DNA of 64,000 nucleotides from Ahrensia sp. (GTDB taxonomy: Bacteria > Pseudomonadota > Alphaproteobacteria > Rhizobiales > Rhizobiaceae). The first letter of the stretch is position 1, and every line of letters begins with the position of its first letter. The notes beneath the pieces were generated by a model, which saw only the letters and a program-made list of their open reading frames with translations, was not told the DNA's origin and did not search any database. Location of the stretch: contig PAKZ01000009.1 of NCBI GenBank assembly GCA_002706335.1, positions 1 through 64,000 on the forward strand. The letters run 5' to 3'. Shown here in pieces: positions 31,010 through 59,147 of the stretch. The translations under genes and the position numbers were made by a program.

Positions 31010-31099
31010 ATCGCGGCACCTTCCGCGCAATGTTGCAATGCTGCCACATTCTGTTGCATGTTGGTCACTCCGAGTTGTCGGACACCAGCAGATTAGAAA

Positions 31100-33427
31100 A
31101 TGTCACTGATACAGAGCGCTAAGGGCGCCCTCGATTTCGGCGTGAACGACCATTCGAGGGCCCGAAGGATGCAGATCCGCGGCATAGCCGTGATCGTTGG
31201 GGCGCTCGTGACGGCCGGTGTATCCTTTGCGGTCCTGATCGGACTGACGCCGATACAGCCCGATGCTCGCGTCACCCTTTCCGCGATCGTCATCAACGGT
31301 TTCTTCGTCTTCGCGATGCTCTGGTTGATCGGAATGGAGCTTCGCCGGATCTATCTGGCACGCAAGGCGGGAAAGGCTGCTTCGCGCCTGCATGTGCGCA
31401 TCGTCGGCCTGTTTTCGCTGATCGCAGCCATACCAGCTATCGCCATTGCCGTCGTCGCGAGCGTTACGCTTGATCTCGGGCTCGACCGCTGGTTCGAGAT
31501 CCGCACCAAGACGATCGTCGAATCATCGCTGCAAGTCGCCGAATCCTACATCAACGAGAATGCGATCAATCTGCGGGACGCAACGATCAACATGGCCTTT
31601 GCCGTGGACGGCCAACGTCGCCTCTACAGTCTCGATCAGGTCGGCTTTCGGCATTTTCTCACGCAGCAGGCCAAGGGCCGCGGGATGCTCGGCGCTTTCG
31701 TGATCCGGCCTAATGGAACCATCGTGCAAAGCGCTGAGATCGACGTTGACAATTAGTTGCCCTCGCCGCCACAGGACGCACTTGATGCGGCCAAGGCCGG
31801 CCTGCCGGTGGTCATTCCTCCGGGCGTTACCAATCTTGTCGGCGCCATCATAAAGCTGCGGGAAATTCCGAACGCTTATATCTACACGATCCGAACGGTC
31901 GACGCCAAAGTTCTGGATGCGGTACAACTTATGCAGCAGAACCGCGCGGAATATACCGGACTTGAGGCGAACCGAACATCTTTCCAGCTTGCCTTTGCGA
32001 TCCTCTATTTCGGGCTGACGCTGATCATGATCCTGTCCGCGATCTGGACTGGTATCGCCGTTGCAAACCGGCTAGTACGGCCTATCCGGCAATTGATCGG
32101 CGCCGCCGAGGAGGTCTCAGAAGGCAATCTGGATATACGCGTTCCGGTGCGCGCGTCCGACGGCGATGTCGGCTATCTCGGCCAGACCTTCAACGGAATG
32201 CTGGGCCAATTGAAGGAACAACGAGACAAGTTGCTGCACGCCAACGAACTGATCGACCAGCGTCGGCGGTTTTCCGAAGCGGTTCTATCAGGCGTGTCAG
32301 CGGGAGTGATGGGCGTGGATGATGGCGGTGTCGTCACTGTCGCCAACCGCTCGGCCGCAGCCATTCTGGGAACCGGCGAGAAAATCGAGCCGGGAACGAG
32401 AATCGACAGCTTGTCGTCGCACATCGCCGCGGTTCTCGACGAGGTCCGCAAGAGTGACCGCGACGATGTTCGCAAGCAGGTTACCTATCTCGACAGGAGC
32501 GGACGCGAACGCGTGCTCAATGTCCAGGTCACTGTCGATCGCGATGTAGGCGCCGGCCAGCGCGTTATCGAGTCCCAGTACGAGTTGGACGAAGCGCCGG
32601 CGAGCCATACGCATGTCATTACGATCGACGACATTTCCGATCTCGTCGAAGCGCAGCGTTCGACTGCCTGGGCCGATGTGGCGCGCCGCATCGCGCACGA
32701 GATCAAGAATCCGCTGACGCCGATCCAGCTTTCAGCCGAGCGGCTGAAACGCCGTTACGGCAAGGTGGTTGGCGAGGACAGCGCGGTCTTCGACCAATGC
32801 ACCGACACGATCATTCGTCAGGTCGGTGATATCGGACGCATGGTGGACGAATTCTCTTCCTTCGCACGGATGCCGAAGCCCGTGATGGAGCGCAAGGATC
32901 TACGCAATACGCTGCGCGAGGCAACATTCCTGGTGGAAGTCAGCCGCAGCGATATCAAATTCGAGCGCGATTTTGACGACGAGGAGCTTGCCTGCGATTT
33001 CGACGACCGCCTCGTCGGACAGGCTTTCGGCAACATTATCAAAAACGCGTCCGAGGCGGTCGAAGCGCGCCAGGCAAGTGATGAAGGCCGCGAAGAAGGC
33101 CATATTCTGGTTCGCGCTTATAGAAACGGCAGGGAGATCGCCGTTGACGTGATCGACAACGGCAAGGGGCTTCCGCGCCAGAACAGGGCGAAGCTCCTTG
33201 AGCCCTATATGACAACGCGCGAGAAGGGCACCGGCCTCGGTCTCGCCATCGTCAAGAAAATCATGGAAGACCATGACGGTCGGCTCGAGTTGCACGATGC
33301 ACCGGCCGACTACCATGGTGGATGCGGAGCGATGGTGCGACTGGTGTTTCCTGCTGCCGCGCAAACGATTTCGTCGGGCAATGACGCGGAACAGGAAACC
33401 GGGGCGCAAGCTGAGAGGACAGCATGA
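31100..33427 (+). pseudogene. ntrY: ntrY, NtrY-type transmembrane sensor kinase interrupted by an in-frame TAG
   Basis: Two ORFs in the same frame, 31100-31756 (218 aa) and 31757-33427, together make a 776-codon NtrY, the normal family length, split only by TAG at 31754-31756 in GACAATTAGTTGCCC. The N-terminal part has three membrane segments (about residues 28-50, 57-78, 95-120) and half of the periplasmic domain; the C-terminal part has the rest of that domain, a fourth membrane segment, HAMP, PAS, H-box (AHEIKNPLTPIQLSAERLK) and ATPase domain. No frameshift or other decay is visible, so the lesion is recent, a sequencing error, or is suppressed. It lies just before ntrX (ATGA overlap). Confidence 0.85.
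31757..33427 (+). CDS. Possible reinitiated C-terminal NtrY fragment (membrane segment, HAMP, PAS, kinase)
   Basis: The codon after the internal TAG is TTG, so ribosomes could reinitiate and make a 556-residue protein. It holds one membrane segment (about residues 74-100), HAMP, PAS, the phosphoacceptor His and a full ATP-binding domain (NIIKNASEA, DNGKGLP, EKGTGLGLAIVKK). No clear Shine-Dalgarno precedes the TTG. Such a fragment would lack the first three membrane segments and half of the sensor domain, so signal sensing would be altered if it is made at all. Confidence 0.4.
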   Translation: MPSPPQDALDAAKAGLPVVIPPGVTNLVGAIIKLREIPNAYIYTIRTVDAKVLDAVQLMQQNRAEYTGLEANRTSFQLAFAILYFGLTLIMILSAIWTGIAVANRLVRPIRQLIGAAEEVSEGNLDIRVPVRASDGDVGYLGQTFNGMLGQLKEQRDKLLHANELIDQRRRFSEAVLSGVSAGVMGVDDGGVVTVANRSAAAILGTGEKIEPGTRIDSLSSHIAAVLDEVRKSDRDDVRKQVTYLDRSGRERVLNVQVTVDRDVGAGQRVIESQYELDEAPASHTHVITIDDISDLVEAQRSTAWADVARRIAHEIKNPLTPIQLSAERLKRRYGKVVGEDSAVFDQCTDTIIRQVGDIGRMVDEFSSFARMPKPVMERKDLRNTLREATFLVEVSRSDIKFERDFDDEELACDFDDRLVGQAFGNIIKNASEAVEARQASDEGREEGHILVRAYRNGREIAVDVIDNGKGLPRQNRAKLLEPYMTTREKGTGLGLAIVKKIMEDHDGRLELHDAPADYHGGCGAMVRLVFPAAAQTISSGNDAEQETGAQAERTA

Positions 33428-34785
33428 AAGCGGACATTCTGATCGTCGACGATGAGCAGGACATTCGAGAGATCGTTGCGGGGATCCTTGAAGACGAAGG
33501 TCATGAAACGCGCACGGCCCATGACAGCGATAGCGCGCTGGCGGCAATTTCCGACCGCGCGCCGCGCCTCGTCTTCCTCGACATCTGGCTGCAGGGCTCG
33601 AAGCTCGACGGGTTGGCTTTGCTGGACGAAATTCAAACGATGCATCCCGGCATGCCGGTGGTGATGATATCCGGTCACGGCAATATCGAGACCGCCGTTT
33701 CAGCCATCAAGCGCGGAGCCTATGACTATATCGAAAAGCCGTTCAAGGCCGACCGTCTTGTACTGATTGCCGAAAGGGCGCTTGAGACCTCGGCGCTCAA
33801 AATGGAAGTGAAGGACCTAAAGCGGCGGTCAAGTGAAACTCGCGAGCTGATCGGCAGTTCGGCGGCAATCAACGCGCTGCGCCAGACGATCAATCGGGTA
33901 TCGCCGACAAACAGCCGTATCCTGATCACGGGCCCGTCTGGATCCGGCAAGGAATTGGTGGCGCGAACTATCCACGCCAATTCGTCGCGGGCAAAAGGGC
34001 CGTTCGTTGTGATCAATGCTGCGGCGATTACGCCGAGCCGCATGGAAACCGAACTTTTCGGCACGGAACCAAATGGCGGCGAGCGAAAGGTCGGCGCATT
34101 GGAACAGGCGCATGGCGGCATTCTCTATATCGACGAGATCGCCGACATGCCGTTGGAGACGCAGACCAAGATCCTCCGCGTGCTGGTCGACCAAGAATTC
34201 GAAAGGGTCGGCGGGGTGCGGCGGGTGAAGGTCGATGTGCGGATCATCTCCTCCACCGCCTTCAATCTAGAGGAACTCATCGAAGCAAAGCGGTTCCGCC
34301 GCGATCTGATGAACCGGTTGGCCGTCGTGCCCATCGAGGTGCCGCCGCTGGCGGACCGGCGCGAGGACATTCCGATGCTCGTGCAAACCTTCATGAAGCA
34401 GATCAGCGAACACACAGGCATCCGCCCGAAATTCATCGGCGACGACGCCATGGCCGTTCTTCAGGCGCATGACTGGCCGGGCAATATCCGCCAGCTGCGC
34501 AACAATATCGAACGGCTGATGATCCTGACACGCGACGAGCCGGACGACACGGTTATCGGCGTTGAAAAGCTACCCTCCGAAATTGGCGAGAACCTGCCGC
34601 GTGCGCCCACCTCTGATGACGCCCACATAATGGCGCTGCCGCTTCGCGAAGCGCGGGAGCGCTTCGAACGTGATTATCTGCTTGCCCAGATTTCGCGTTT
34701 TGGCGGAAACATCTCGCGTACGGCCGAATTCGTTGGTATGGAGCGGTCCGCGTTGCACCGAAAGCTGAAATCGCTTGGTGTCTAG
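33424..34785 (+). CDS. ntrX: Response regulator NtrX
   Basis: NtrX is the partner of NtrY, regulating nitrogen, redox and envelope functions in alphaproteobacteria. The 453-residue protein has a receiver domain with Asp53 (VFLDIWL), an AAA+ domain with Walker A GPSGSGKE and Walker B ILYIDEIADMP, and a C-terminal Fis-type helix-turn-helix (SRTAEFVGMERSALHRKLKSLG). The stretch where NtrC has GAFTGA reads GTEPNGGERKVGAL, so sigma-54 contact is not expected. It overlaps the ntrY stop by ATGA and so depends on translation through the damaged gene. Confidence 0.95.
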   Translation: MKADILIVDDEQDIREIVAGILEDEGHETRTAHDSDSALAAISDRAPRLVFLDIWLQGSKLDGLALLDEIQTMHPGMPVVMISGHGNIETAVSAIKRGAYDYIEKPFKADRLVLIAERALETSALKMEVKDLKRRSSETRELIGSSAAINALRQTINRVSPTNSRILITGPSGSGKELVARTIHANSSRAKGPFVVINAAAITPSRMETELFGTEPNGGERKVGALEQAHGGILYIDEIADMPLETQTKILRVLVDQEFERVGGVRRVKVDVRIISSTAFNLEELIEAKRFRRDLMNRLAVVPIEVPPLADRREDIPMLVQTFMKQISEHTGIRPKFIGDDAMAVLQAHDWPGNIRQLRNNIERLMILTRDEPDDTVIGVEKLPSEIGENLPRAPTSDDAHIMALPLREARERFERDYLLAQISRFGGNISRTAEFVGMERSALHRKLKSLGV

Positions 34786-44053: not shown

Positions 44054-44215
44054 GAACAGTCGTTTCGCTGGGAGGGCATGCCCAACATATGCCGAATGGG
44101 CCGGTTCGACGCCAGACAAGGCCGCGGATGGCGACGGGCTTTCCCCACGAGAATAAGCCGCCATGATGCATGCGCGGATTTTGTTGCATGCTTAGCGATT
44201 ATTGAAGCGGGCGCT

Positions 44216-44431
44216 TCACTCGTCCTTTGCATCTTTCGCTTCAGGCTCCCGCGGCGCAAATGTGATGAACAGTCCGTGGAACGCCACGGCGGCCAATGCG
44301 ACAAAGAGCACACCCCAGAAAGTCGCTCCGTTGATAAACTCGAAAACGCCCCACAGAACAGCCACCGCGACGACCGCGATCCGAATCCAGAGCGGCTTGA
44401 AGAATGGGTCATTGAAATCGAACAGCTTCAA
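44216..44431 (-). CDS. Small membrane protein, unknown
   Basis: The 71-residue protein MKLFDFNDPFFKPLWIRIAV... has two membrane segments (about residues 14-35 and 39-58) and a charged C-terminus (REPEAKDAKDE). Its pattern, with an N-terminal FDFNDPFFKPLWIR, suggests a conserved alphaproteobacterial membrane protein, but I cannot name a family with confidence. The 162-base gap to mazG holds no gene I can support. Confidence 0.7.
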   Translation of the reverse strand: MKLFDFNDPFFKPLWIRIAVVAVAVLWGVFEFINGATFWGVLFVALAAVAFHGLFITFAPREPEAKDAKDE

Positions 44432-44552
44432 AAGCGTATCCTAACTCACGGCCGCTGGAGATTATCAATTCGCGCAGGATTAGCACAGACCATCGCTGCG
44501 GGTGGATGCCGAAAGAGACGCTTTCGACCGGCGACATGGTTCGCTCTCGCAG

Positions 44553-44900
44553 TCAGTGTTCACTTTCTCCCGTTACTCGAAAAACCAAACGCCGATACGC
44601 GGACATCTTCGTCGGAGCCAATGGCTTGCAGCAGGGGGTGAGCGGCGGCGCGTGTCCAAACTCTCCGTCGGCCTCGATCCTGCCATCTACAAGTTGCGCC
44701 ATGCAAGCGAACGGCCGGCCGCACCCAAGGCACTGTGCGACTATTTCCACGTGATTTCCATTGTCGGACAGAGCCGGGGAATCGGAGCTCTCAACGAGCA
44801 GAATCGCCGGCGGCAACTCAATGTAATCCGCAGCATCAAGTCCGATCGGCTTCATCTCGGCGGCCAGCAAGGCAAGCCTTTCAACCAAATCCGTTTTCAC
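44553..44900 (-). CDS. Hypothetical protein with clustered cysteines
   Basis: From a GTG at 44900, preceded by AAGGTGAGGAC, the frame encodes 115 residues (MKTDLVERLALLAAEMKPIG...). The ORF track's 167-residue version has an atypical N-terminus with no ribosome binding site; a GTG at 44909 is the other option. Cysteines in CLGCGRPFAC and TPCC could bind a metal. No family is recognised. It lies downstream of a LuxR-type regulator gene, same strand, 163 bases away, in a stretch that looks more AT-rich than its neighbours. Confidence 0.5.
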   Translation of the reverse strand: MKTDLVERLALLAAEMKPIGLDAADYIELPPAILLVESSDSPALSDNGNHVEIVAQCLGCGRPFACMAQLVDGRIEADGEFGHAPPLTPCCKPLAPTKMSAYRRLVFRVTGESEH

Positions 44901-45063
44901 CGTCCTCACCTTTTTGGATAGAGTACGCTTACGGATTAATGACCCAAATGGATCACACGAGACAATGACCAATTGGCCATAAGCCCAATAAATATACCTG
45001 CTACGCAGATCAGTCCGCGAGTGGCACGAAAGAAGGGCGTCTCGCCTTACTCGCAAGAAAAGA

Positions 45064-45810
45064 TCATATGATGATGTGCCTGTCTCTAATTGCGATCGAG
45101 ACGGCGTGGATCTTGCTCACAGCGTCAAGCTTCCGGCAGATGCTCGAGATATGATACTGTACGGTATGGGTGCTGATACCGAGCGCGTCTCCGACCCGCT
45201 CGCTATTAAGTCCTTGCGCCGTGAGAATCAGGCATTCGCGCTCTCGCTCGCTCAGGACGGGCTGCCGATTGCTATTGGACGCGGCACCTACGGTCGCACG
45301 TTCAAAACCTTGTTGGGCGACATAGCTGAGCTGCATTAGATCCGAATCGGACAACGATTCACGCGCGCCGGAATACACCACGGCGCCATTCTGCCCATCA
45401 GTGGAGCGAACTGGAAGGTGGATGAGAATTTCCAGGCCGGCCTTCAATAGCGACTGCTGAAAGTCCCGGCATTCACGGTCGGTCTCGGCTTCGATTATTT
45501 CCTTTCGTTCTACAACCGACGGCAGAACGGCGCTTCTCAGCCGCGTTAATACCGGATTTTGCAACAGCGCCCGGTGGTAGCGGTAGTCAGAGAGGAATTC
45601 GGGATGCCAGTTGTTTATGCCGATGCTGACCGTCTCTCCGGTCTGATCGCCGAGCCTGAAGTTCGCGAAAGCGAAGAACTTCATTCCGGTCCCGGACACA
45701 TGGTCTTTGAACACCTTGATCAGATCGTAGTCTGTGCTCGCGGAGCGTATTTGCGCGCTGCTCTTGTTTACCCAATCACAACAAGGGGAAGATTCGGTTA
45801 TCGATTGCAT
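45064..45810 (-). CDS. LuxR family regulator with autoinducer-binding type domain (orphan)
   Basis: The 248-residue protein from the ATG at 45810 has an N-terminal autoinducer-binding type domain (about 10-165) and a C-terminal LuxR helix-turn-helix: LSERERECLILTAQGLNSERVGDALGISTHTVQYHISSICRKL in essence. Aligned to TraR, Tyr61 and Pro71 are kept, but Trp57 is Phe, Asp70 is Asn (LLQNPV) and Trp85 is Val, so acyl-homoserine lactone binding is doubtful. No luxI gene is in the window. An upstream ATG at 45882 lacks a ribosome binding site. It lies 92 bases from tRNA-Lys. Base composition looks lower in GC than the neighbours. Confidence 0.85.
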   Translation of the reverse strand: MQSITESSPCCDWVNKSSAQIRSASTDYDLIKVFKDHVSGTGMKFFAFANFRLGDQTGETVSIGINNWHPEFLSDYRYHRALLQNPVLTRLRSAVLPSVVERKEIIEAETDRECRDFQQSLLKAGLEILIHLPVRSTDGQNGAVVYSGARESLSDSDLMQLSYVAQQGFERATVGAASNSNRQPVLSERERECLILTAQGLNSERVGDALGISTHTVQYHISSICRKLDAVSKIHAVSIAIRDRHIII

Positions 45811-45901
45811 GCACTCGTTCGACTCAACGTGATTTTGAGCGCAATTATGCAATTTCCCCCCGATCAGGCATCCCAAAATCATACTCGGTTTACAGAAAAT
45901 T

Positions 45902-45977
45902 TGGTGAGCGCGCAGGGGTTCGAACCCTGGACCTACTGATTAAAAGTCAGTTGCTCTACCGGCTGAGCTACGCGCTC
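45902..45977 (-). tRNA. tRNA-Lys (anticodon TTT)
   Basis: On the minus strand the sequence folds as a standard tRNA: acceptor GAGCGCG/CGCGCTC, D arm GCTCAGCCGGTAGAGC, anticodon arm CTGACTTTTAATCAG with anticodon TTT, and T arm CAGGGTTCGAACCCTG. The terminal CCA is encoded. Length is 76 bases including CCA. Confidence 0.97.
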
Positions 45978-46187
45978 CCGAGCGGCGGCGAGGCCGCCGT
46001 CAAGACGGACCGTTCATAGGGACGGCGTCCCGCATGGTCAACCGCATTCTGGCCGGCAATGGTTGAAAAAACGTGGCAATTCGACGCCCGCGCGGATTGG
46101 TGATTTCACTGTGAGGCGCAGATGTCCTAAGACGGCCGCAATCGCCCCGGATGTGCGGGCCAAACGGACAATGCGACCGGAGAATTC

Positions 46188-46949
46188 ATGGCTGTCGACG
46201 TTTCCTATGTCAGCGCGCTGGGCGCGGGCGCGATTTCCTTCCTTTCGCCCTGCGTGTTGCCGCTCGTGCCGCCATATCTCTGCTACATGGCCGGCGTCTC
46301 GGTGGATCAGTTCCGCGGCCAGCCCGGCGCGGCCGGTGGGGCCGCTGTCGCGGCAGCGCCTGTGCGGCTGCCGCTGCTGATCGCGGCCTTCGCCTTCGTC
46401 GCCGGCTTTTCGACAGTCTTCGTCGCGCTCGGCGCAGGCGCCAGCACGATCGGCGGACTGCTGCGCGCCTATCAGCAGGAGCTGGCGATCATCGCCGGTA
46501 TCGTCATCATATTGATGGGGCTGAACTTCCTCGGCGTGTTCCGGATCGCGCTGTTCTCGCGCGAGGCGCGGTTCCAGACCCGCGGCGCGCCGGCCAATCC
46601 GTTCGCCGCCTATCTGATGGGGCTCGCCTTCGCCTTCGGTTGGACGCCCTGTATCGGGCCGGTTCTGGGGCCAATCCTGACATTGGCCGGCGCGCGCGAC
46701 AGCGTCGGCGAGGGCGCGGCGCTGCTGGCGGTCTATTCCGCCGGGCTCGGCATTCCGTTCCTGCTGGCAGCGCTGTTCTCGGGTGCATTCATGCGCTTTA
46801 TGCAGTCGTTCCGCACGCATCTCGGCACGGTGGAGAAGGTAATCGGCGGATTGCTGGTGCTGGCCGGCGTGCTGTTCCTGACCGGTGGTATGCAGTCCAT
46901 GTCGTTCTGGCTGCTGGAGCGATTCCCGGTGCTCGGGACGCTCGGCTAG
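46188..46949 (+). CDS. ccdA: Cytochrome c biogenesis protein CcdA
   Basis: CcdA carries electrons across the inner membrane to periplasmic thioredoxin-like proteins for cytochrome c maturation. The 253-residue protein has six membrane segments and the two conserved cysteine motifs, FLSPCVLPLVPPYLCYMAG in segment one and GWTPCIGPVLGPIL in segment four. It shares its TAG stop with the next gene on the other strand through a CTAG tetranucleotide. The 210-base gap from tRNA-Lys holds a short GC-rich inverted repeat near 45983-45998 and no gene I can support. Confidence 0.94.
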   Translation: MAVDVSYVSALGAGAISFLSPCVLPLVPPYLCYMAGVSVDQFRGQPGAAGGAAVAAAPVRLPLLIAAFAFVAGFSTVFVALGAGASTIGGLLRAYQQELAIIAGIVIILMGLNFLGVFRIALFSREARFQTRGAPANPFAAYLMGLAFAFGWTPCIGPVLGPILTLAGARDSVGEGAALLAVYSAGLGIPFLLAALFSGAFMRFMQSFRTHLGTVEKVIGGLLVLAGVLFLTGGMQSMSFWLLERFPVLGTLG

Positions 46950-47881
46950 GCGGGTTTCGCCTTAGGCCTGCCCAACAGTTTCGCGGGGAACGTCGCCGTG
47001 ATGACGCCCGCCATGACGAGAGCGATCCCTGCGGCGTGATAGGCGTGGAATTCCTCGCCGAGGAAGACGATGGCGAGGCCGACCCCATAGGGTGGCAGCA
47101 GGTACATGAAAACTCCGGCGATGGACGCACCAAGCGCGCGCACACCGAACTGGAAGGTCGAGAAAGCAAGCAGCGAGGAGATCAGCACGATCCCGGCGAT
47201 CGCCGCCCAGCTATGCGCCTCTGTCGCCATAGCATCGCCCTGCACCAATTCCCACAGCGCGATCGGCAGGTTCGACAGCGCGCCAAAGATGGCGACGAGT
47301 GCGAAGAGCGGCATGTTGCCCATATGGCGGAGGGGTTCCGATCGGTAGAGGATCGAATAGCCGGCCCAGCTGATTGCGCCGGCAAAGACCAGCAGGTCGC
47401 CGATATTGAAAGACAATGACAGCGCGGTCTCCAGCGAACCCCGAAGGACGATAACTGCGACGCCGGCGAATGCGAGCAGCGTGCCGGCCATCTCGCGGAA
47501 ATGGCTGCGCCGCCCGAGGAAGAGGCGTTCGAGCAGGATGATCAGGACGGGCGAGGTCGTGTAGATCAGCGTGCCGTTGGTCGCTGTCGTATATTTGAGC
47601 GCCAGGTAGATGCCGCCGCCACAGATCCCCATACCGAGAAATCCGAGCACGGCGAGCCGCCTCCACCGGGTCCGCAGCAGCGGAACAACAGTGTCGCGAT
47701 GGAGATAGAGAAGCGGCGAGAGGATCGCAGCCACTGCTGCCCAGCGGATCGTCGCGAGCAGGAAGGGCGTCACTTCTCCGGTTACGTATCGTCCGAAAAT
47801 GAGGTTGGTGGAGAAGAACAGCGGGGCCGCCAGCATCACCAGATAGGGGAGCGGCGAGGGCGAGGACGGGGTGGATGACAT
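46946..47881 (-). CDS. DMT superfamily transporter (EamA domains)
   Basis: The 311-residue protein has about ten membrane segments in two EamA repeats, with the typical opening LVMLAAPLFFSTNLIFGRYV, the first repeat ending GTLLAFAGVAVIVLRG and the second ending GEEFHAYHAAGIALVMAGVI. Such proteins export metabolites such as amino acids or nucleosides; the substrate is unknown. Its stop overlaps the ccdA stop in CTAG. It is divergent from glmU across a 136-base gap. Confidence 0.92.
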   Translation of the reverse strand: MSSTPSSPSPLPYLVMLAAPLFFSTNLIFGRYVTGEVTPFLLATIRWAAVAAILSPLLYLHRDTVVPLLRTRWRRLAVLGFLGMGICGGGIYLALKYTTATNGTLIYTTSPVLIILLERLFLGRRSHFREMAGTLLAFAGVAVIVLRGSLETALSLSFNIGDLLVFAGAISWAGYSILYRSEPLRHMGNMPLFALVAIFGALSNLPIALWELVQGDAMATEAHSWAAIAGIVLISSLLAFSTFQFGVRALGASIAGVFMYLLPPYGVGLAIVFLGEEFHAYHAAGIALVMAGVITATFPAKLLGRPKAKPA

Positions 47882-48017
47882 GCGTCCGCATTAGTGGGCG
47901 TTCGCACGCGCCGCAAGCGACCCACACGCGAAATCGGAAGGCCGATATGGAAACCGGGCGGGAATCCCGCTATTGCCCGGATTGGTCCCATCCTCGTTCG
48001 CCCGGGAGGTATATTTC

Positions 48018-49382
48018 ATGGCGCGCAGCTGTCTGACGATCATCCTGGCCGCAGGCCAGGGCACACGGATGAAATCGGCCTTGCCGAAGGTGCTGCATCC
48101 GGTCGCCGGCCTGCCGATGGCGGCGCATGTCGCGGCGACGGCGCGAGCCGCCGGCAGCGATGCGGTCGCCGTCGTCTACGGCCATGGCGGCGAGGCGGTG
48201 CGCGATGCGCTATCCGGCAAGCTCGACGGCGCGTCATGGCATGAGCAGGCGGAGCAGCTCGGCACGGCGCACGCAGTGCTGGCGGCACGCGAAGCGATTT
48301 CAAAGGGTTACGACGATATCCTCGTAATGTTTGGCGACACGCCGCTGGTCCGGCCCGACGTCATGCGGGAGGCACGAGCAAAATTGGCCGACGGCGCGGC
48401 TGTGGTGGTGGTCGGGTTTCGGCCGGACAATCCCTTCGGCTACGGACGGCTGATCGAGCGGGGCGGCGAACTTGTCGCGATCCGTGAAGAACGTGATGCG
48501 ACAGATCAGGAGAGATCCATAAGCTATTGTAATGGAGGCATAATGGCCTTCAACGGCAACATGGCGCCGCAGCTTCTCGACGCGATCGGCAACGACAACA
48601 CGAAGGGCGAATATTACATGACCGACGCGGTCGAGATCGCGCGCGCCAGGGGCCTGAAAGTGGTCGCCATCGAGGCTCCGGTGGAAGATGTCGTCGGCGT
48701 CAATACGCGGGGCGATCTCGCGGCGGTCGAGGCGATCTGGCAACGCCGCACCCGCGAAAAGATGCTTGCGGAAGGGGTGACCATGACCGCGCCGGATACG
48801 GTCTTCTTCCATCACGACACCGCGGTGCAGGCGGACGCCTCGATCGAACCGAATGTCGTCTTCGGTCCGGGCGTCACGGTGAAGGCCGGAGCACTTATAC
48901 GCGCATTCTCGCATCTGGAAGGAGCAACTGTTGGTGAAGGCGCGGAGGTCGGTCCGTTCGCACGATTGCGGCCGGGCGCGGAACTCTCGTCGAACGCCAA
49001 GGTCGGCAATTTCTGCGAGGTGAAGAAGGCCGAGATTGGCGAGGGGGCCAAGGTCAATCACCTGACCTATATCGGCGATGCGGTGATCGGCGCAGGCGCC
49101 AACATTGGCGCGGGAACCATCACCTGCAATTACGACGGCTACGACAAGCACCTGACCGAAATTGGAGCTGGCGCGTTCATCGGTTCGAATTCCGCCTTGG
49201 TCGCGCCGGTGAAGATCGGCGACAACGCCTATGTATCGTCGGGCTCCGTCGTGACCGAGGCGGTCCCGGACGACGCGGTCGCCTTTGCACGGGCGCGGCA
49301 GGTAAACAAGGATGGGCTCGCGCCGAGGCTACGGGCACGTTTCAAGGCAGCGAAGGAAGCCAAGAAGGCGAAAAAGGACTAG
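48018..49382 (+). CDS. glmU: Bifunctional GlmU (N-acetylglucosamine-1-phosphate uridyltransferase / glucosamine-1-phosphate acetyltransferase)
   Basis: GlmU makes UDP-N-acetylglucosamine for peptidoglycan and lipopolysaccharide. The ATG at 48018 (GGGAGGTATATTTC upstream) gives 454 residues. The N-terminal Rossmann-like domain has [20 protein letters not shown] and QLGTAHAV; the C-terminal left-handed beta helix has hexapeptide repeats ([27 protein letters not shown] in essence) and [21 protein letters not shown]. Its TAG stop is shared with recG through CTAG. Confidence 0.97.
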
Positions 49383-51487
49383 CCAGCGCGCAGCAGCCGG
49401 ATCGCCTCGTCGCGCTCGAACAGATAGAGCAGGATGCGCAGCGCCTTGCCGCGCTCGGTTTCGAGATCCGTATCAGTTTCTATGACGAGCCGCGCATCGT
49501 CGCGGGCGATCTCCAGCAGGTCGGCATGGTCGGCCAACGATGCTAGGCGGTATGAAGCGGAGCCCGACTGGCGGGGACCGAGCACTTCGCCTTCGCCGCG
49601 CAGTTTCAGATCCTCCTCGGCGATGCGGAAACCGTCCTCGGTCTCGCGCATGATGGCGAGCCGCGCATGGGCCACTTCGCCGAGAGGCTCCTTGTAGAGG
49701 AGCAGGCAGGTGGACTGGCCGCTGCCGCGCCCGACGCGGCCGCGCAACTGGTGCAGCTGGGCGAGGCCGAAGCGCTCGGCATGTTCGATCACCATGATGG
49801 TCGCGTCCGGCACGTCGACGCCGACCTCGATCACCGTCGTGGCGACCAGCAAGCGCGTCTCGCCTTCCTTGAAGGCCTGCATGACGGCGTCTTTCTCCTC
49901 GCCCTTCATGCGGCCATGGACGAGGCCGATCGGCGCGTCGATAGCCTTCTTCAAGGCGGCAGAGCGTTCCTCGGCGGAAGCGAGTTTCAGCTCCTCGTTT
50001 TCCTCGACCAGCGGGCAGATCCAATAGATCTTTCGGCCCTCGGCGACGGCCTTGCGCAGATGTTCGACGATCTCGTCGTAACGGCCGAGCGGCATGGCGA
50101 CGGTCGTGACCGGCTGGCGGCCAGGCGGCTTTTCGTCGAGTTTCGAGACATCCATGTCTCCATAGGCGGTCAGTACAAGCGTGCGCGGGATCGGGGTCGC
50201 GGTCATCACCAGCATGTCGGAATGCTGCCCCTTTGAAGAAAGCATCAGGCGCTGATGGACGCCAAAACGGTGCTGCTCGTCGACCACGGCGAGGCCGAGG
50301 TCGCGGAACTGCACGGCATCCTGGAACAGCGCATGGGTGCCGACGAGGATATCGATCTCGCCAGCCTTCAGCGCGGCCAGCGTCTCCTCGCGCTGCTTGC
50401 CCTTTTCGCGGCTGGTCAGGATGCGGATCGTCAGGCCTGCAGCTTCTGCCAAAGGGGCGATCGAGGCGAAGTGCTGGCGGGCGAGGATTTCCGTCGGCGC
50501 CATCATGGCCGCCTGCGCGCCGGATTCGATGACGTTTGCCATGGCGAGCAGTGCAACCACAGTCTTGCCGGAGCCGACATCGCCCTGCAATAGCCGCAAC
50601 ATGCGTTCGGGCTTCTCCTGATCGGTGTGGATTTCGCCGAGCGAACGCTCCTGCGCGCCGGTCAACGGATGGCCGAAGGCAGCGCGGATCTTCTGCGTCA
50701 GTTCGCCGGTGCCCCCGAAGGTGCGGCCGGCGGATTTCTTCATCTTGCGGCGAACGAGGCCGAGCGCCAGCTGACCGGCCAGCAACTCGTCATAGGCGAG
50801 CCGCCGTCGCGCCGGGTTCTGCAAATCGACATCGGCCGCGTCGCGCGGCGCATGCAGGCGCTGCAGGCTTTCGCGGAAGGACGAAAATCCCTGTTTCCTG
50901 ACGACATGGGGATCGGTCCATTCGGGCAGGTCCGGCACGCGGTCGAGCGCCGAGATGATCGCCTTTCGAAGCGGTTTCGGTGTGACGCCGGCCGTCAGCG
51001 GATAGACAGGCTCGACCAGCGGCAAGTCAGCGGCGTTTTCCTCGGAGACGACATGGTCTGGATGCACCATGGTCGGGCGGCCGTTGAACCATTCGACCCG
51101 GCCGGAGACCAGCATCGTTTCACCGATCGGCAGGAGCTTTTCGAGCCATGCTGCCTTGGCGTGGAAGTAGACCAGACCGATTTCTCCGGTCTCGTCATGG
51201 GCGAACACCCGGTAGGGAATATTGCCGCGCCCGCGTGGCGGCGGCTGGTGGCGGTCGATGCGGACCTTCAGCGTGACGATTGCGCCTTCCGGTGAATGAG
51301 CTATGCCCGGTTGCTGGCGTCGATCTACGATGGAATGCGGCAGGTGGAAGACCAGGCCGAGGACGCGCGGCTCGTTCATCGCCTCGGGCACGGGTAGGAG
51401 TTTGCCTAGAAGCTTGGCGATACGCGGCCCGATCCCGTCGATGACGGCGACGGGTGCAAACAGGGGATCGAGGACAGGCGGTCGCAT
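49379..51487 (-). CDS. recG: ATP-dependent DNA helicase RecG
   Basis: RecG remodels stalled forks and branched DNA. The ORF track's 826-residue frame is too long; the family N-terminus [20 protein letters not shown] starts at 51487, giving 702 residues, the normal size (an in-frame ATG at 51502 is also possible). Domains: wedge/OB fold (about 60-150), helicase with Walker [17 protein letters not shown] box, TATPIPRTL, and the motif [10 protein letters not shown]. It is convergent with glmU and divergent from sdhE. Confidence 0.96.
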
Positions 51488-51586
51488 GCGTGCATCTTTC
51501 ATGGCCCGGCAGGTGCGATCAAGGCTGACAAGCCCGCCTGCCGGCGTTATACCGCCACCGTTTTCCTGACACGCGAAGTAGACGCC

Positions 51587-51877
51587 ATGGCCACGTCCCC
51601 GCAGGACGCCGAAATCGACATTGACGCCCGCAGACGCCGCGCGAAGTTTCGCGCCTGGCATCGCGGCATGAAGGAAATGGACCTGTTGCTCGGCCAATAT
51701 GCCGACGCGCATGTGGCGACGATGACCGCGGAGGATCTGGACGGCTTCGAATCGCTTCTCGAAGTGCTCGATCGCGACCTGTTCAAATGGTTCACGGGCG
51801 AGGGGCCGGTGCCCGTCGATCATTACACGCCGCTGTTTCGCGCGATCTGCAGCCATCACGGGATCAAGCTGACATGA
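51587..51877 (+). CDS. sdhE: SdhE family FAD assembly factor
   Basis: SdhE (DUF339) helps attach FAD covalently to the succinate dehydrogenase flavoprotein. The 96-residue protein has the family core RRRAKFRAWHRGMKEMDLLLGQYADAH and FESLLEVLDRDLFKWF, with RGMKEMD corresponding to the conserved RGxxExD motif. Its stop overlaps the mfd start by ATGA; the pairing with recG and mfd is the standard alphaproteobacterial neighbourhood. Confidence 0.95.
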   Translation: MATSPQDAEIDIDARRRRAKFRAWHRGMKEMDLLLGQYADAHVATMTAEDLDGFESLLEVLDRDLFKWFTGEGPVPVDHYTPLFRAICSHHGIKLT

Positions 51878-54800
51878 GCGCCAAATCGAAGAAGCTCTGG
51901 ATCGATGTTCCCAACGTGCCGGCCGATGCCGGCCGTGTCGTCTTTTCGAGCGTCGCAGCCGGCGCGGAGCCTTTCGTCGTCAATGCGCTTTGCGCCAAGG
52001 CGGCGGCGAAGGACGGCCCGGTGATCTATGTCGCCCGCGACGGCTCGGCGCTGGCCGACTGGGCGCAGGTATTCTCCTTCATCGCGCCGGAGATCGAGAT
52101 CATCGATTTTCCGGCCTGGGACTGCCTGCCTTACGACCGCGTGTCGCCCGGCTCCGACGTGTCGGCGCGACGACTGGCGGCGATGACTCGGATCGCGGGG
52201 CTGCGCCGGAAGGCGACGCCGGCCGTCATCCTGACGACGGCGAACGCCGTCCTGCAGCGGATGCCGCAGCCGGACGAGATCGCCGGGCAGACTATCATAG
52301 CGAAGCCCGGCCAGACCGTGCGCATGGACGACATCACTGCGACACTCGCCTCGGCCGGTTTCGAACGCGTGCCGACGGTGCGCGAGGTTGGCGAATATGC
52401 GGTGCGCGGCGGCATTCTCGACATTTTCGCGCCGGGTACGCCGGAAGCGGTTCGGCTCGATTTCTTCGGCGATACGCTGGAAAGCGTGCGCGCCTTCGAT
52501 CCGGCGACCCAGCGCACCCCCGGCCAGAAGACCGAATTCACATTGCAGCCGGCAAGCGAGATTTCTCTGACGCCGGAAACCGTGGCGCGATTCCGGCAGG
52601 GCTACCTCTCGACCTTCGGCGCACCCTCGCGCGACGACGCGCTCTATGCGTCTATCACCAGCCAGCAGCGCTTTGCCGGCATGGAACACTGGCTGCCGCT
52701 GTTCCATGAGGAACTGACGACACTGTTCGAATGCCTGCCGGAGGCGCCGGTTGTGCTGGAGCATCTGACGCGCGAGGCGCTGACCGAGCGCAGGACGATG
52801 ATCGAGGATCATTACGAGGCGCGCCAGGCGCAGTCGGACGGGAAACTCGGCGGCGACGGGGTGCCCTACAAGCCGCTGCCGCCGGACGCACTTTACCTGA
52901 CGCCCGAGGAGGCCTTATCGCTGGCCGCCACGCGGCTGACCGTATCGCTGTCGCCTTTCGGCGTACCGGAGACGCCGGATGTCACTGTGTTCGACCTTGC
53001 TATCGCGTCAGGGCGCAATTTTTCGCTGGAGCGGGCCGACAAGCAGGCGAATGTCTTCGAAATGGCAGCGAAGCATGTCGCGGCGCTGCGCGCCGACGGC
53101 AAGCGGGTCTTTCTGGCCGGATGGAGCGACGGGTCGCTGACCCGGCTGATCCAGATCCTTGAGGAACACAAGCTCGGCGGCATCGAGACGGTCACAGGCG
53201 TCGGCGTTGCCATGGCGCTGAATCGAACGGTCATACCGGCGGCGGTGCTTTCCATCGAGCATGGTTTCGAGACCAAGGATTTCGCGCTCGTCGCCGAACA
53301 GGACATTCTCGGCGACAGGCTGGTTCGGCATCGCCGCCGCAAGAAGGCATCGGATTTCATCTCTGAGGCGTCGGCGCTGGCGGCGGGCGACATCGTCGTG
53401 CATGTCGATCACGGTATCGGCCAGTTTGTCGGGCTGCGCACAATCGAGGCGGTCGGCGCGCCGCATGACTGCCTCGAGATTCTCTATGCCGGCGACGGAC
53501 GACTGTTCCTGCCGGTCGAGAACATCGAACTGCTGTCGCGCTACGGCTCGGATGCTAGCACGGCGCAGCTCGATCGGCTTGGAGGCGGGGCGTGGCAGGC
53601 GCGCAAGGCAAAGCTGAAGAAGCGCCTGCTCGACATGGCCGACCAGCTGATCAGGATCGCGGCCGCGCGCGAATCGCGGTCAGCGTCTGTTCTGCGTCCG
53701 CCGGAAGGGCTCTATGACGAATTCGCGGCGCGCTTTCCCTATGACGAGACCGAGGATCAGCTGGGCGCCATCGACGCGGTGATCGGCGATCTGGTCGCGG
53801 GCAGGCCGATGGACCGGCTAGTCTGCGGCGATGTCGGCTTCGGCAAGACGGAAGTGGCGATCCGCGCGGCCTTCGTCGCGGCGCTGAACGGCCAGCAGGT
53901 GGCCGTCGTCGTGCCGACGACGCTGCTCGCCCGGCAGCATTTCCGGTCGTTTTCCGAACGGTTCCGAGGTTTGCCGGTCAATATCGCCCATGCCTCGCGG
54001 CTGGCCGGACCGAAGGCGCTGGCGGAAGCCAAGAAGGGCGTCGCCGACGGCAGCGTCGACATCGTTGTCGGCACGCATGCGTTGCTCGGGCAGGGGATCA
54101 CCTTCAAGAATCTCGGCTTGCTGATCGTCGACGAGGAGCAGCATTTCGGCGTAAAGCACAAGGAACGGCTGAAAGAGCTGAAGTCGGACGTACATGTGCT
54201 GACGCTCACCGCGACGCCGATCCCGCGCACCTTGCAGCTTGCCCTGACGGGCGTGCGTGAATTGTCGCTGATCTCGACGCCGCCGGTCGACCGGCTGGCG
54301 GGGCGCACCTTCGTCTCGCCCTTCGATCCCCTGGTGATCCGCGAAACGTTGCTGCGCGAACGCTATCGTGGCGGCCAGAGCTTCTATGTCTGCCCGCGCA
54401 TTTCCGACCTCGCCGAGGTGAAGGCGTTTCTCGACGAGCATGTCTCGGAACTGAAGGTCGCGGTGGCACATGGCCAGATGGCGCCCGGCGAACTCGACGA
54501 CGTGATGAACGCCTTCTATGACGGTAGCTACGACGTTCTGCTGTCGACCACGATCGTGGAATCGGGCCTCGACATACCGACCGCCAATACGATGGTGGTG
54601 CATCGCGCCGACATGTTCGGCCTGGCGCAGCTCTACCAGATCCGCGGCCGAGTGGGCCGTTCGAAGTTGCGCGCCTATGCGCTACTGACGCTGCCGGCGA
54701 AGAAGATGCTGACGAAGACGGCGGAACGGCGGTTGAAAGTGTTGCAGTCGCTCGATTCGCTCGGTGCCGGCTTTCAACTGGCGAGCCACGATCTCGATAT

Positions 54801-55401
54801 TCGCGGCGGCGGCAATCTGCTTGGAGAGGAACAGTCCGGCCATATCAAGGAGGTCGGGTTCGAGCTTTATCAGCAGATGCTCGAGGAAGCGGTGCTCGAA
54901 ATGAAGGGCGAAGCGGTGCACGATCACGGCCAATGGTCGCCGCAGATCGCGGTGGGCACATCGGTGATGATCCCGGAAGGCTATGTCGGCGACCTGCAAT
55001 TGCGCCTGTCGCTCTACCGCCGGCTCGGCGAGTTGGAGGAAATCCGCGACATCGACGGGTTCGGCGCTGAATTGACTGACCGGTTCGGGCCGCTGCCGGA
55101 GGAGGTCGAGCACCTACTGAAGGTGGTCTATATCAAGGCGCTGTGCCGCAAGGCCAATATCGAAAAACTGGACGCCGGACCCAAGGGCGCGGTCATCCAG
55201 TTCCGCAACAAGGAATTCTCCGATCCGGCCGGGCTGATCGGCTATATCGGCGAGCAGGGCTCGTTGGCAAAGATCCGGCCCGACCAGTCGATCCTGTTCA
55301 CCCGCGACTGGCCGACTCCGGCGAAACGGCTTGCAGGCAGCGCGATCCTTGCGACCAAGCTTGCGGCCCTCGCGGACAAGGCATCAGATAAGGCGGCCTG
55401 A
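51874..55401 (+). CDS. mfd: Transcription-repair coupling factor Mfd
   Basis: Mfd removes RNA polymerase stalled at DNA damage and recruits UvrA, whose gene is also in this window. From the ATG at 51874 overlapping the sdhE stop the protein has 1175 residues. The UvrB-like domain fills the first part, the RNA polymerase interacting domain follows (AGDIVVHVDHGIGQFVGL near residue 500), then the RecG-like motor with Walker [34 protein letters not shown] and GRVGRSKLRAYA, and the C-terminal TRCF domain. A strong stem-loop follows the stop. Confidence 0.97.
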   Translation: MSAKSKKLWIDVPNVPADAGRVVFSSVAAGAEPFVVNALCAKAAAKDGPVIYVARDGSALADWAQVFSFIAPEIEIIDFPAWDCLPYDRVSPGSDVSARRLAAMTRIAGLRRKATPAVILTTANAVLQRMPQPDEIAGQTIIAKPGQTVRMDDITATLASAGFERVPTVREVGEYAVRGGILDIFAPGTPEAVRLDFFGDTLESVRAFDPATQRTPGQKTEFTLQPASEISLTPETVARFRQGYLSTFGAPSRDDALYASITSQQRFAGMEHWLPLFHEELTTLFECLPEAPVVLEHLTREALTERRTMIEDHYEARQAQSDGKLGGDGVPYKPLPPDALYLTPEEALSLAATRLTVSLSPFGVPETPDVTVFDLAIASGRNFSLERADKQANVFEMAAKHVAALRADGKRVFLAGWSDGSLTRLIQILEEHKLGGIETVTGVGVAMALNRTVIPAAVLSIEHGFETKDFALVAEQDILGDRLVRHRRRKKASDFISEASALAAGDIVVHVDHGIGQFVGLRTIEAVGAPHDCLEILYAGDGRLFLPVENIELLSRYGSDASTAQLDRLGGGAWQARKAKLKKRLLDMADQLIRIAAARESRSASVLRPPEGLYDEFAARFPYDETEDQLGAIDAVIGDLVAGRPMDRLVCGDVGFGKTEVAIRAAFVAALNGQQVAVVVPTTLLARQHFRSFSERFRGLPVNIAHASRLAGPKALAEAKKGVADGSVDIVVGTHALLGQGITFKNLGLLIVDEEQHFGVKHKERLKELKSDVHVLTLTATPIPRTLQLALTGVRELSLISTPPVDRLAGRTFVSPFDPLVIRETLLRERYRGGQSFYVCPRISDLAEVKAFLDEHVSELKVAVAHGQMAPGELDDVMNAFYDGSYDVLLSTTIVESGLDIPTANTMVVHRADMFGLAQLYQIRGRVGRSKLRAYALLTLPAKKMLTKTAERRLKVLQSLDSLGAGFQLASHDLDIRGGGNLLGEEQSGHIKEVGFELYQQMLEEAVLEMKGEAVHDHGQWSPQIAVGTSVMIPEGYVGDLQLRLSLYRRLGELEEIRDIDGFGAELTDRFGPLPEEVEHLLKVVYIKALCRKANIEKLDAGPKGAVIQFRNKEFSDPAGLIGYIGEQGSLAKIRPDQSILFTRDWPTPAKRLAGSAILATKLAALADKASDKAA

Positions 55402-55406
55402 ACGAA

Positions 55407-55430
55407 AACGGGGCCCAAGCGGGCCCCGTT
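55407..55430. terminator. Strong stem-loop between mfd and the ialB-like gene
   Basis: AACGGGGCCC at 55407-55416 pairs perfectly with GGGCCCCGTT at 55421-55430 around the tetraloop AAGC, six bases after the mfd stop. The A-rich 5' flank and TT at the 3' side make it a good bidirectional terminator candidate between convergent genes. Confidence 0.8.
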
Positions 55431-55456
55431 CGAAGTCAGTGATTTAGCCTGAAAAA

Positions 55457-56086
55457 TCAGTTGGCCTGCTTGGCCTTGTTCTGCTCTTCCTGCAGACGCT
55501 TCTGGAAGTCGGCCTTACGCTTCTCGATGGCGTCCTGCAGCTGCTGCTGACGGCTTTCAACTTCCGACTGCTTCAGCGGCTCACCGTCGAACGCGGCGGT
55601 GAAACCGCTCAGCGAAATTTTGATCGGGTTCGGCTGGTTGCGGAAGTTGATCGAGGTCAGCGTCAGTTCGCCACCCTTTTTCAGCTGCGCGACCAGCTCG
55701 GTGGTCAACGGTGCTTCGGCGATGCAGCGGTCTGGCAGGCACATCGCATAGTTGATCTTCTGCGCCTGTCCGCCGTCGACCTGCATGCCGATTCCTGCAG
55801 GGATCACACGCCCGGTCGGTACGGCGATCTGAAAGATGGCGCGGTTCACCTTGCCGGTGATCTGGATCAGGTTCACAGCTGTCAGAAGCTGACCGGTATT
55901 GGCCGTGCGGATATTCTGCACGTTGCAGATGTCATTGTCTTCCTGTTTGGAGCAGACCTTGAACCATCCCTCAGGCATCCGCTGCTGGTTCTGTGCGCTG
56001 GCGGTTTGCGCGAAGCCGGAAACACCTGCACAAGCTACCCCCAACCCCAACACTACGGCAAATGTCTTCCTCATAATCGCGAGCAT
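55457..56086 (-). CDS. Invasion-associated locus B (IalB) family exported protein
   Basis: The 209-residue protein starts at the ATG at 56086 (AAAAGGATGCAGCTTG upstream); ATG 56074 is possible. A signal peptide (RKTFAVVLGLGVACAGVSGFAQTASAQ in essence) precedes the IalB domain with WFKVCSKQEDNDICNVQNI, four cysteines in C..C and MCLPDRCIAEAPL, and a C-terminal coiled coil rich in Gln, Glu and Lys. The family was named in Bartonella, where it aids red cell entry, but members are widespread in free-living rhizobia with unknown roles. The 226-base gap upstream holds no other gene I can support. Confidence 0.92.
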   Translation of the reverse strand: MLAIMRKTFAVVLGLGVACAGVSGFAQTASAQNQQRMPEGWFKVCSKQEDNDICNVQNIRTANTGQLLTAVNLIQITGKVNRAIFQIAVPTGRVIPAGIGMQVDGGQAQKINYAMCLPDRCIAEAPLTTELVAQLKKGGELTLTSINFRNQPNPIKISLSGFTAAFDGEPLKQSEVESRQQQLQDAIEKRKADFQKRLQEEQNKAKQAN

Positions 56087-56312
56087 CAAGCTGCATCCTT
56101 TTCTTCGTTACCCAGAACGGTCGTGCGAACCGGTGATAGTCAAATGCGGCTACACCATGACGAGCCTAATCCGGCGGTGTGATACACATGCAAAGCAGGC
56201 AATTCCAGCCCCGCCAAACAATTCCGCCGAATTTCCGGCAGAATGCTGAATTCGTCAAAAGCCCGTGCTAGGTTCCGATTCCGGTACCGCCAATGAGGAT
56301 GGAGGATTGATC

Positions 56313-58130
56313 ATGCGAATTCCTGTCAGGCAATGGCTCGGCATGCTTGCAGCCGCTGCAATGGTCGTTTCGACGCACGCCATCGCCGAACCCATGCACG
56401 GAATCGCGATGCACGGCCAGCCGGCGCTACCGACCGACTACACACATTTCCCGTATGCCAACCCCGATGCGCCGCAGGACGGCGAACTCACCTATGGCGT
56501 GCGCGGTATATTCGACAGCCTAAACCCGTTCCTTCTGAAGAGCTTCCGAAATACCGCGCGCGGCATGTGGGGAGATCCGGAATACGGCAATCTTGTATAT
56601 GAACCACTGATGCAGCGTTCGCGCGACGAACCTTTCTCCATGTACGGGCTGATTGCTGAGAAGATCGAGACAGACACCGAGCGTACCTGGGCGGAATTCA
56701 CACTGAACCCGAACGCGCACTGGTCGGACGGCAAGCATATCACGCCGGAGGACGTGATCTTCACCTTCGAACTGATGACCGAAAAAGGCAGGCCGCCCTA
56801 CAACCGCAGAATGGACCGGATCGAAAAGATCGAGAAGACCGGCGAACATAAGGTTAAGTTCACATTCAACGACAAATCCGATCGCGAATTCCCGCTGATC
56901 GTCGCCTTGTCGCCGGTCTTGCCGTCACATGTGTTCGATCCCGAGACGTTCGAGAACACGGCCACCGACATGCCTGTCGGAAGCGGGCCCTACCTCGTTG
57001 AAAGCGTCGATTTCGGCAACCGTATCGTCTATCGGCGGGATCCGGATTACTGGGGCAAGGACATCCCCTCGCAGCGCGGGTTCAACAACTACGAGACGAT
57101 CACGGTCGAGTATTTCCGGGATCAGACTGCCCTTTTCGAAGCCTTCAAGAAAGGCATTTTCGACATCTATCCGGAGGGCGATCCGGTCAAATGGGAAACC
57201 GCATATGATTTCCCCGCCGTGAAGGAAGGCAAGGTCGTGAAGTCGGTCTTCACCTCCGGCGCGCCGGTTTCGATGAACGGTTTCTTCTTCAATACGCGCC
57301 GGGAAAAGTTCGCCGATCCGAAGGTCCGCGAGGCGCTGTCTATGCTGTTCGATTTCGAATGGATCAACGCGAACCTGTTTTCCAACCGCTACACCCGAAC
57401 AGGTTCGTTCTGGCAGAATTCCGAAGAGCTTTCGGCGCTTGGTCGGCCGGCCGATGAAATCGAGAAGAAGCTTCTCGCGCCGTATATGGACAGGGTACAG
57501 CCGGATGTCATGGACGGAACATATGAACCGACGAAAACCGACGGCTCGGGTCGCGACAGGGCTATCTTGCGCGAAGCACTCAAGAAGTTCGGCGAGGCCG
57601 GCTACTCCATTGAGGACGGCAAGCTCGTCAAGGACGATCAGCAGCTGTCCTTCGAGATCATGACGTCCAATCAGGACGAGGAAAAGATGGCTCTGGCATA
57701 CCAGCGCACGGCTTCGGCGCTTGGCATCGACGTGGCTGTGCGCACGGTCGACGACGCGCAATTCCAGAAACGCCGGCAGACCTGGGACTACGATATGACA
57801 GCCGCACAACTATCCGCGTCGTTGTCGCCGGGTGCGGAGCAGGTTTGGCGTTGGGATACGCGCTCGCGCGACGTCGAAGGAACGTTCAACTATGCCGGTG
57901 CCGCCGATCCGGCTATCGACGCCATGATCGATGCGATGTTGAATGCGCGCGAGCGGGATGAGTTCGCCGCCGCCGTGCGCGCCCTGGACCGCATCCTGAT
58001 ATCCGGTCACTACGTCATTCCGCTGTACCATATCGGAGAATCCTGGGTCGCCCATTGGGCCAAGGTCAAATACCCGGAATATACGCCGCTCTATGGCTAT
58101 CAGTTGCCGGTCTGGTGGGCCGAGAAATGA
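56313..58130 (+). CDS. Family 5 extracellular solute-binding protein (peptide type, YejA-like)
   Basis: From the ATG at 56313 (GGAGGATTGATC upstream) the protein has 605 residues with a signal peptide (WLGMLAAAAMVVSTHAIAEP). The SBP_bac_5 fold is shown by PDAPQDGELTYGVRGIFDSLNPF, NAHWSDGKHITPEDVIFTFELM in essence, MPVGSGPYLVESVD and NTRREKFADPKVREALSMLFD. YejA-like proteins bind oligopeptides or related compounds for an ABC importer. No permease or ATPase gene is adjacent; the next gene, a DsbA-family oxidoreductase, overlaps by ATGA. Confidence 0.93.
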   Translation: MRIPVRQWLGMLAAAAMVVSTHAIAEPMHGIAMHGQPALPTDYTHFPYANPDAPQDGELTYGVRGIFDSLNPFLLKSFRNTARGMWGDPEYGNLVYEPLMQRSRDEPFSMYGLIAEKIETDTERTWAEFTLNPNAHWSDGKHITPEDVIFTFELMTEKGRPPYNRRMDRIEKIEKTGEHKVKFTFNDKSDREFPLIVALSPVLPSHVFDPETFENTATDMPVGSGPYLVESVDFGNRIVYRRDPDYWGKDIPSQRGFNNYETITVEYFRDQTALFEAFKKGIFDIYPEGDPVKWETAYDFPAVKEGKVVKSVFTSGAPVSMNGFFFNTRREKFADPKVREALSMLFDFEWINANLFSNRYTRTGSFWQNSEELSALGRPADEIEKKLLAPYMDRVQPDVMDGTYEPTKTDGSGRDRAILREALKKFGEAGYSIEDGKLVKDDQQLSFEIMTSNQDEEKMALAYQRTASALGIDVAVRTVDDAQFQKRRQTWDYDMTAAQLSASLSPGAEQVWRWDTRSRDVEGTFNYAGAADPAIDAMIDAMLNARERDEFAAAVRALDRILISGHYVIPLYHIGESWVAHWAKVKYPEYTPLYGYQLPVWWAEK

Positions 58131-58792
58131 CGGAGACGGTTCATATCGACATCGTGTCCGACGTGGTGTGCCCCTGGTGCTTCGTCGGCAAGAAACGGTT
58201 CGAAAAGGCGCTTGGAGAAATCGGCGAAGACATTGCGGTCGAAATCAATTGGCGGCCCTTTCAGCTCGACCCGACGATTCCGCCCGGAGGCAAGGATCGA
58301 AAACAATATCTCGCGGAGAAATTCGGCAGCATGGAGCGCTCAAACGAACTCCATCGCAATCTCGCGAATATCGGCGCGGAAGCGGGTATTCCCTTCCAGT
58401 TCGACGCGATCGAGGTTTCACCGAACACACTCGACGCGCATCGGCTCATTCGCTGGGCGCAGACAGCGGGCGACGGGGTGCAGGGGCACGTAGTCGAGGA
58501 GCTTTTCGAACTCTATTTCCTCAAAGGGCAGAACATCGGCGATCACTCCGTGTTAGTCGACGTGGCGCGCGAGGCAGGCATGGATGCGGCGGTGATCGAG
58601 ACCCTGCTGGCAAGCGATGCCGACCGGGAAGCGATTACACAGGAGATCGCTCTCGCCCAACAGATGGGCGTCACCGGCGTGCCGTGTTTCATCCTGGAAA
58701 ACAAATATGGGGTGATGGGGGCTCAAGACCCCGAGACGATCGCGGATGCGATCAGGCAGGTCGCCGCGGAGAAATCCGCGGCGACAGTCTGA
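58127..58792 (+). CDS. DsbA family oxidoreductase (FrnE-like)
   Basis: The ATG at 58127 overlapping the binding-protein stop gives 221 residues. The thioredoxin-fold active site is VCPWCFVGKKRF at about residues 13-24, and the cis-proline loop is MGVTGVPCFILENKYGVMGAQ. There is no signal peptide, so this FrnE/2-hydroxychromene isomerase-like protein acts in the cytoplasm as a thiol oxidoreductase or glutathione-linked isomerase. Its TGA mirrors that of hspQ inside a palindrome. Confidence 0.92.
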   Translation: MTETVHIDIVSDVVCPWCFVGKKRFEKALGEIGEDIAVEINWRPFQLDPTIPPGGKDRKQYLAEKFGSMERSNELHRNLANIGAEAGIPFQFDAIEVSPNTLDAHRLIRWAQTAGDGVQGHVVEELFELYFLKGQNIGDHSVLVDVAREAGMDAAVIETLLASDADREAITQEIALAQQMGVTGVPCFILENKYGVMGAQDPETIADAIRQVAAEKSAATV

Positions 58793-58799
58793 CTTAAAG

Positions 58800-59147
58800 T
58801 CAGTGTTCGAGACCCGGACGGATCGAGTAGCGCCTCGAATCCGAAACCCACTCGAAGACGTCCGGCACCTGTGGATGGCGGACCGGCTCTCCACTGTCGT
58901 CCGGAACAAGGTTCTGTTCCGATACATAAGCGACATATTCCGTATCCGCGTTTTCCGCGAAAAGGTGATAGAAGGGCTGGTCCTTGCGCGGGCGCATCTC
59001 TTCCGGGATCGCCTCGTACCATTCCTCGGAATTGGCGAATTCCGGATCGACGTCAAAGATCACGCCCCGGAACGGGTAGATCCGGTGACGGACAAGATCG
59101 CCTATCGCGTAACGCGCCATGGCGGTTTTTACATGGTTCTTTTCCAT
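58800..59147 (-). CDS. hspQ: Heat shock protein HspQ
   Basis: HspQ (YccV) binds hemimethylated DNA in vitro and acts as a Lon specificity factor in enterobacteria. The protein is 115 residues from the ATG at 59147, with the family core FAIGDLVRHRIYPFRGVIFDVDPEFANSEEWY in close form and QPFYHLFAENADTEYVAYVSEQNLVPDDSGEPVRHPQV. An internal ATG at 59120 (MARYAIGD) is the other start option. The ORF track's 396-residue frame runs antisense through the transporter gene and is not real. Confidence 0.93.
   Translation of the reverse strand: MEKNHVKTAMARYAIGDLVRHRIYPFRGVIFDVDPEFANSEEWYEAIPEEMRPRKDQPFYHLFAENADTEYVAYVSEQNLVPDDSGEPVRHPQVPDVFEWVSDSRRYSIRPGLEH

Follow-up and report, generated by a model that had tools for sequence, protein, structure and literature searches.

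An in-frame amber codon in ntrY of an Ahrensia sp. genome, probably a recent nonsense mutation

The ntrY gene of Ahrensia sp. (assembly GCA_002706335.1) is interrupted by a TAG codon, which raises the question of whether the sensor kinase has been lost, whether the codon is decoded, or whether the sequence is wrong at this point. The gene lies in the window, by which we mean the whole analysed stretch of 64,000 nucleotides (contig PAKZ01000009.1, positions 1 to 64,000 of the forward strand). An initial annotation had proposed a recent nonsense mutation, read-through or suppression, or a wrong base call, and had pointed to the TTG codon after the stop as a possible restart. According to the analysis described below, a recent nonsense mutation is most likely, more so than a sequencing error, and special decoding is not supported.

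One stop codon in a complete ntrY frame

On the + strand, sequence and translation reveal a single frame from the ATG at 31100 to the TGA ending at 33427, encoding a complete NtrY. It consists of 218 codons, the TAG, a further 556 codons and the TGA, which gives 776 when both stops are counted. Its parts are the following:

31100..31756, + strand: 5' part of ntrY, 218 codons plus TAG, with three membrane segments and the start of the periplasmic sensor domain
31754..31756, + strand: in-frame amber TAG, codon 219, seen in the sequence, the translation and the codon alignment with congeners
31757..33427, + strand: in-frame 3' part of ntrY, with the remaining periplasmic domain, the last membrane segment, HAMP, HisKA and HATPase_c

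The Pfam family NtrY_N (PF19312) is divided by the TAG, with profile positions 6-197 matched before it (E 1.1e-24) and 211-290 after it (E 2.6e-4), while HAMP, HisKA and HATPase_c follow in that order on the 3' side. Hydropathy places membrane segments at residues 24-53, 56-81, 96-129 and 293-323, and codon 219, being located between the last two, thus lies in the periplasmic domain. The catalytic boxes (H box HEIKNPLTPIQ, N box and G boxes) are undamaged, and translation of the frame 31100-33427 revealed no frameshift, indel or second internal stop. The initial description of a whole ntrY with its domains in order, divided by one TAG in the periplasmic domain and free of other decay, is thus borne out. 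The gene has the features of its class, namely the NtrY_N region, the order of HAMP, HisKA and HATPase_c with their boxes, and the gene order; what it lacks is an uninterrupted coding sequence. Its domain order and its location between ntrC and ntrX are those of known NtrY, and its protein is 76-83% identical to those of the congeners, none of which has the in-frame TAG at codon 219.

Relatives, selection and the surroundings of the stop

The host genome (G000) is a 46-contig draft of 5.1 Mb, and the TAG-bearing NtrY is the only one in it. The alignment to sister genomes that the initial annotation suggested as a check gave a clear answer: the residue at the codon 219 position is Pro or Ala in all five congeners, and an internal ntrY stop occurs in none of the five. 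For one congener, G004, the NtrY alignment is identical to that of an Oricola MAG. With about 100 wider relatives added to the five congeners, the position is always occupied by a sense residue, and it lies in a variable linker, where relatives carry P, A, E, D, G, R, T, S, V or H. A survey of Rhizobiaceae, in which 151 genomes were drawn and 146 contained NtrY at E below 1e-100, yielded a clean single internal ntrY stop in 1 of the 146, the host.

Two other candidates were not counted in this survey. The ntrY stops of G060 come from frame-disrupted duplicate copies in a draft genome, and the TAA of G168 is located past the point where the alignment of the gene stops. The two copies in G060 (L175 and L176) are near-identical, located on separate contigs and both frame-damaged, and are probably assembly noise. 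Separately, two large Rhizobiaceae genomes of 5.4 Mb (G036) and 4.2 Mb (G133) are without a strong NtrY match, as are small-genome relatives; natural loss or an assembly gap is possible for these two.

A branch model fitted to six genomes from the genus gave an omega for ntrY of 0.066 in the host lineage vs 0.051 elsewhere, which is not a significant difference (2dlnL 1.35), and 0.070 before and 0.063 after the stop within the host lineage, all of these values being approximate because the tree is weakly supported (bootstrap 25-58) and synonymous change is near saturation. The genes neighbouring ntrY behave normally in the same model. In an end-of-branch neutral model, the neutral share of the terminal branch is best set at about 1%, with a 2-log-unit bound of about 4%, so the break is either recent or erroneous; a fully neutral terminal branch would, according to the model, give about 32 stops in ntrY. 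Among 234 columns at which 98% or more of 101 wider relatives agree, the host NtrY departs at 8 and the congeners at 2 to 5, and the host's departures are mostly conservative and placed at columns where at least one congener departs as well. These patterns indicate that ntrY was functional until very recently or is functional even now. The lack of relaxed selection is also what a base error or a still-made protein would produce.

What is expected of a recent nonsense pseudogene agrees with these data: the stop is missing from close relatives, and long-standing relaxed selection is not seen. Like such genes, ours has one stop and is otherwise undecayed, its homologues in all congeners are intact, and purifying selection acted on it until recently; nothing distinctive separates it from them except that its stop is located in a cluster of private substitutions:

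31743..31756, + strand: stretch where lineage-specific substitutions of ntrY are densest, with 6 private sites within 9 nt, up to and into the TAG

This maximum of 6 private sites was reached in 5 of 1000 shuffles, which makes the TAG a little odd as an isolated point mutation. A template-switch origin of the cluster was considered and set aside, with no local direct match over 7 nt and no inverted match over 8 nt.

Decoding, error and restart as competing explanations

Full-length NtrY might still be made if UAG were read through or suppressed, and the frame, like those of amber-suppressed or recoded genes, does continue past the TAG without other decay. Unlike in those systems, however, no tRNA with a CTA anticodon was found among the 45 tRNAs of the host genome, where the initial annotation had advised looking for one, and RF1 (prfA) is intact (493 bits vs a cut-off of 423, GGQ present); UAG should therefore terminate. 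The tRNA set itself is incomplete, since tRNA-Ile and tRNA-Ala(TGC) were not found among the 45, which indicates that the draft has gaps among its tRNA genes, probably at the rRNA operons. Further evidence against decoding is that TAG is the natural terminator of several genes of the window, including ntrX, which ends in TGA in congeners; that no stop occurs within about 150 ABC_tran and 36 HATPase_c domains of the host genome (about 186 in all); that folding of the RNA 3' of the TAG is no better than that of shuffles (z 0.10); and that the TAG is conserved in no relative. Read-through or suppression is thus highly improbable, and this option of the initial annotation finds no support. The patch around the stop could also be taken for a gained regulatory site, of which the stop would be a by-product. 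Its sequence, CAATTAGTTG, agrees with the CAAN2-5TTG box of NtrX that has been reported from S. meliloti (PMC9223101), and the patch lies within the densest lineage-specific cluster; but CAAN4TTG occurs 11 times in the window vs 10.4 expected, and there is no promoter-like site nearby. With the motif at chance frequency, we rejected this scarcely credible reading.

A sequencing or assembly error, with a sense codon and an intact NtrY in the organism, is another explanation. It is in keeping with the unrelaxed selection on ntrY, with a draft in 46 contigs and with the survey of about 40 window genes for which a congener alignment was possible, where ntrY alone was broken and its TAG was the one internal stop. 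That survey of stops used best-frame filtering, and the other stops listed for real genes appear upstream of start codons. Yet the aligned genes are otherwise free of suspicious stops and frameshifts, which indicates a low local error rate and argues against a generally poor assembly. Moreover, the TAG differs from each congener codon at two or more positions, so a single miscall does not simply lead to it from a congener codon. True pseudogenes are also commoner than base errors in good drafts, and an error is, on balance, unlikely. The remaining explanation accepts the stop as real and assumes that initiation within the gene still yields a truncated kinase; one possible start is the following codon:

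31931..31933, + strand: in-frame ATG, candidate internal start, anti-SD -3.1 kcal/mol (native ntrY start -3.0)

Lying upstream of the last membrane segment, this ATG is the best-placed candidate for an internal start, though a weak one. Its product would comprise the last membrane segment, HAMP, PAS and kinase without most of the periplasmic sensor domain, and ntrX would stay coupled. In favor of such a product, the downstream frame is fully open with undamaged catalytic motifs and a low omega, the ribosome site of ATG 31931 is no weaker than that of the native start, and Bordetella PlrS without its PDC domain is viable, this domain controlling phosphatase activity (PMC13001219). Against it, a low omega is equally expected from a merely recent stop, the downstream starts with better scores all lie 3' of the membrane segment, and no promoter-like site, including an internal sigma-70 promoter, was recognised on the + strand of the ntrY region. 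The initial annotation was right that a TTG stands directly 3' of the TAG, but its suggestion of reinitiation there did not hold up: with no Shine-Dalgarno site (anti-SD duplex -0.4 kcal/mol), reinitiation at this codon is unlikely. A real stop with internal initiation is accordingly quite improbable. Less probable again is the stronger version, in which the whole species carries the TAG as a fixed change and its NtrY has become a shortened, internally initiated kinase that has lost membrane segments one to three together with most of the periplasmic sensor domain. If it were true, NtrYX would operate without periplasmic input, with the cytoplasmic PAS input kept.

Expected consequences for NtrX and the adjoining genes

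Among the options named at the outset, a recent nonsense mutation is the best supported, given the single stop, the absence of decay, purifying selection on both halves and the intact genes of congeners. We consider it probable that the sensor of the host lineage was inactivated by a recent amber substitution, which fell in a variable linker within the periplasmic domain. Termination of translation at codon 219 would leave a membrane stub of 218 residues that has no HAMP, PAS or kinase part, and the kinase/phosphatase half would not be made, or only at a low level. Phosphorylation and dephosphorylation of NtrX would then proceed by other routes, and NtrX~P is expected to be less controlled after such a loss.

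Studies of related systems indicate that loss of NtrY is survivable. An ntrY deletion exists in S. meliloti, with phenotypes unlike those of the ntrX mutant (PMC9223101), and in Caulobacter NtrY acts as an NtrX phosphatase (PMC9731502). Bordetella strains without most of the NtrY homologue PlrS are viable, and another donor phosphorylates the response regulator when PlrS is mostly absent (PMC13001219).

Downstream, the gene order is ntrB-ntrC-ntrY-ntrX-trkA, with ntrB, ntrC, ntrX and trkA intact. Two features adjoining ntrY are relevant to the expression of the pair:

33424..34785, + strand: intact ntrX, whose start codon shares an ATGA with the stop of ntrY; NCBIfam NtrX 726.8 bits (cut-off 600)
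31010..31099, + strand: ntrC-ntrY intergenic region, with a congener-conserved element around CCACATTCTGTTGCAT; the region is not decayed

The overlapping and intact ntrX was also as the initial annotation had described it. With ntrY translation ending early, ntrX translation may drop because coupling is lost or through polarity, though its own strong Shine-Dalgarno site (-9.4 kcal/mol) or an internal promoter could compensate. The Bordetella counterpart of ntrX is served by a separate promoter that lies inside the kinase gene, at its 3' end (PMC13001219). The conserved element around CCACATTCTGTTGCAT could serve ntrYX as a promoter or for autoregulation.

If the mutation is real, this genome carries a natural loss-of-function allele of NtrY with ntrX kept intact, and it provides a case for asking whether NtrY is mainly an NtrX phosphatase and how expression of ntrX proceeds when the cognate kinase is missing. 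The explanation itself is an ordinary one and challenges no known mechanism.

A separate observation concerns the far end of the window (44200-61600). Beyond about 44.2 kb, near a tRNA-Lys gene (45902-45977), the sequence does not match the syntenic stretches of two congeners. Since its genes look core (RecG-like, Mfd-like and a GlmU-like nucleotidyltransferase), the pattern resembles a break in synteny more than an island.
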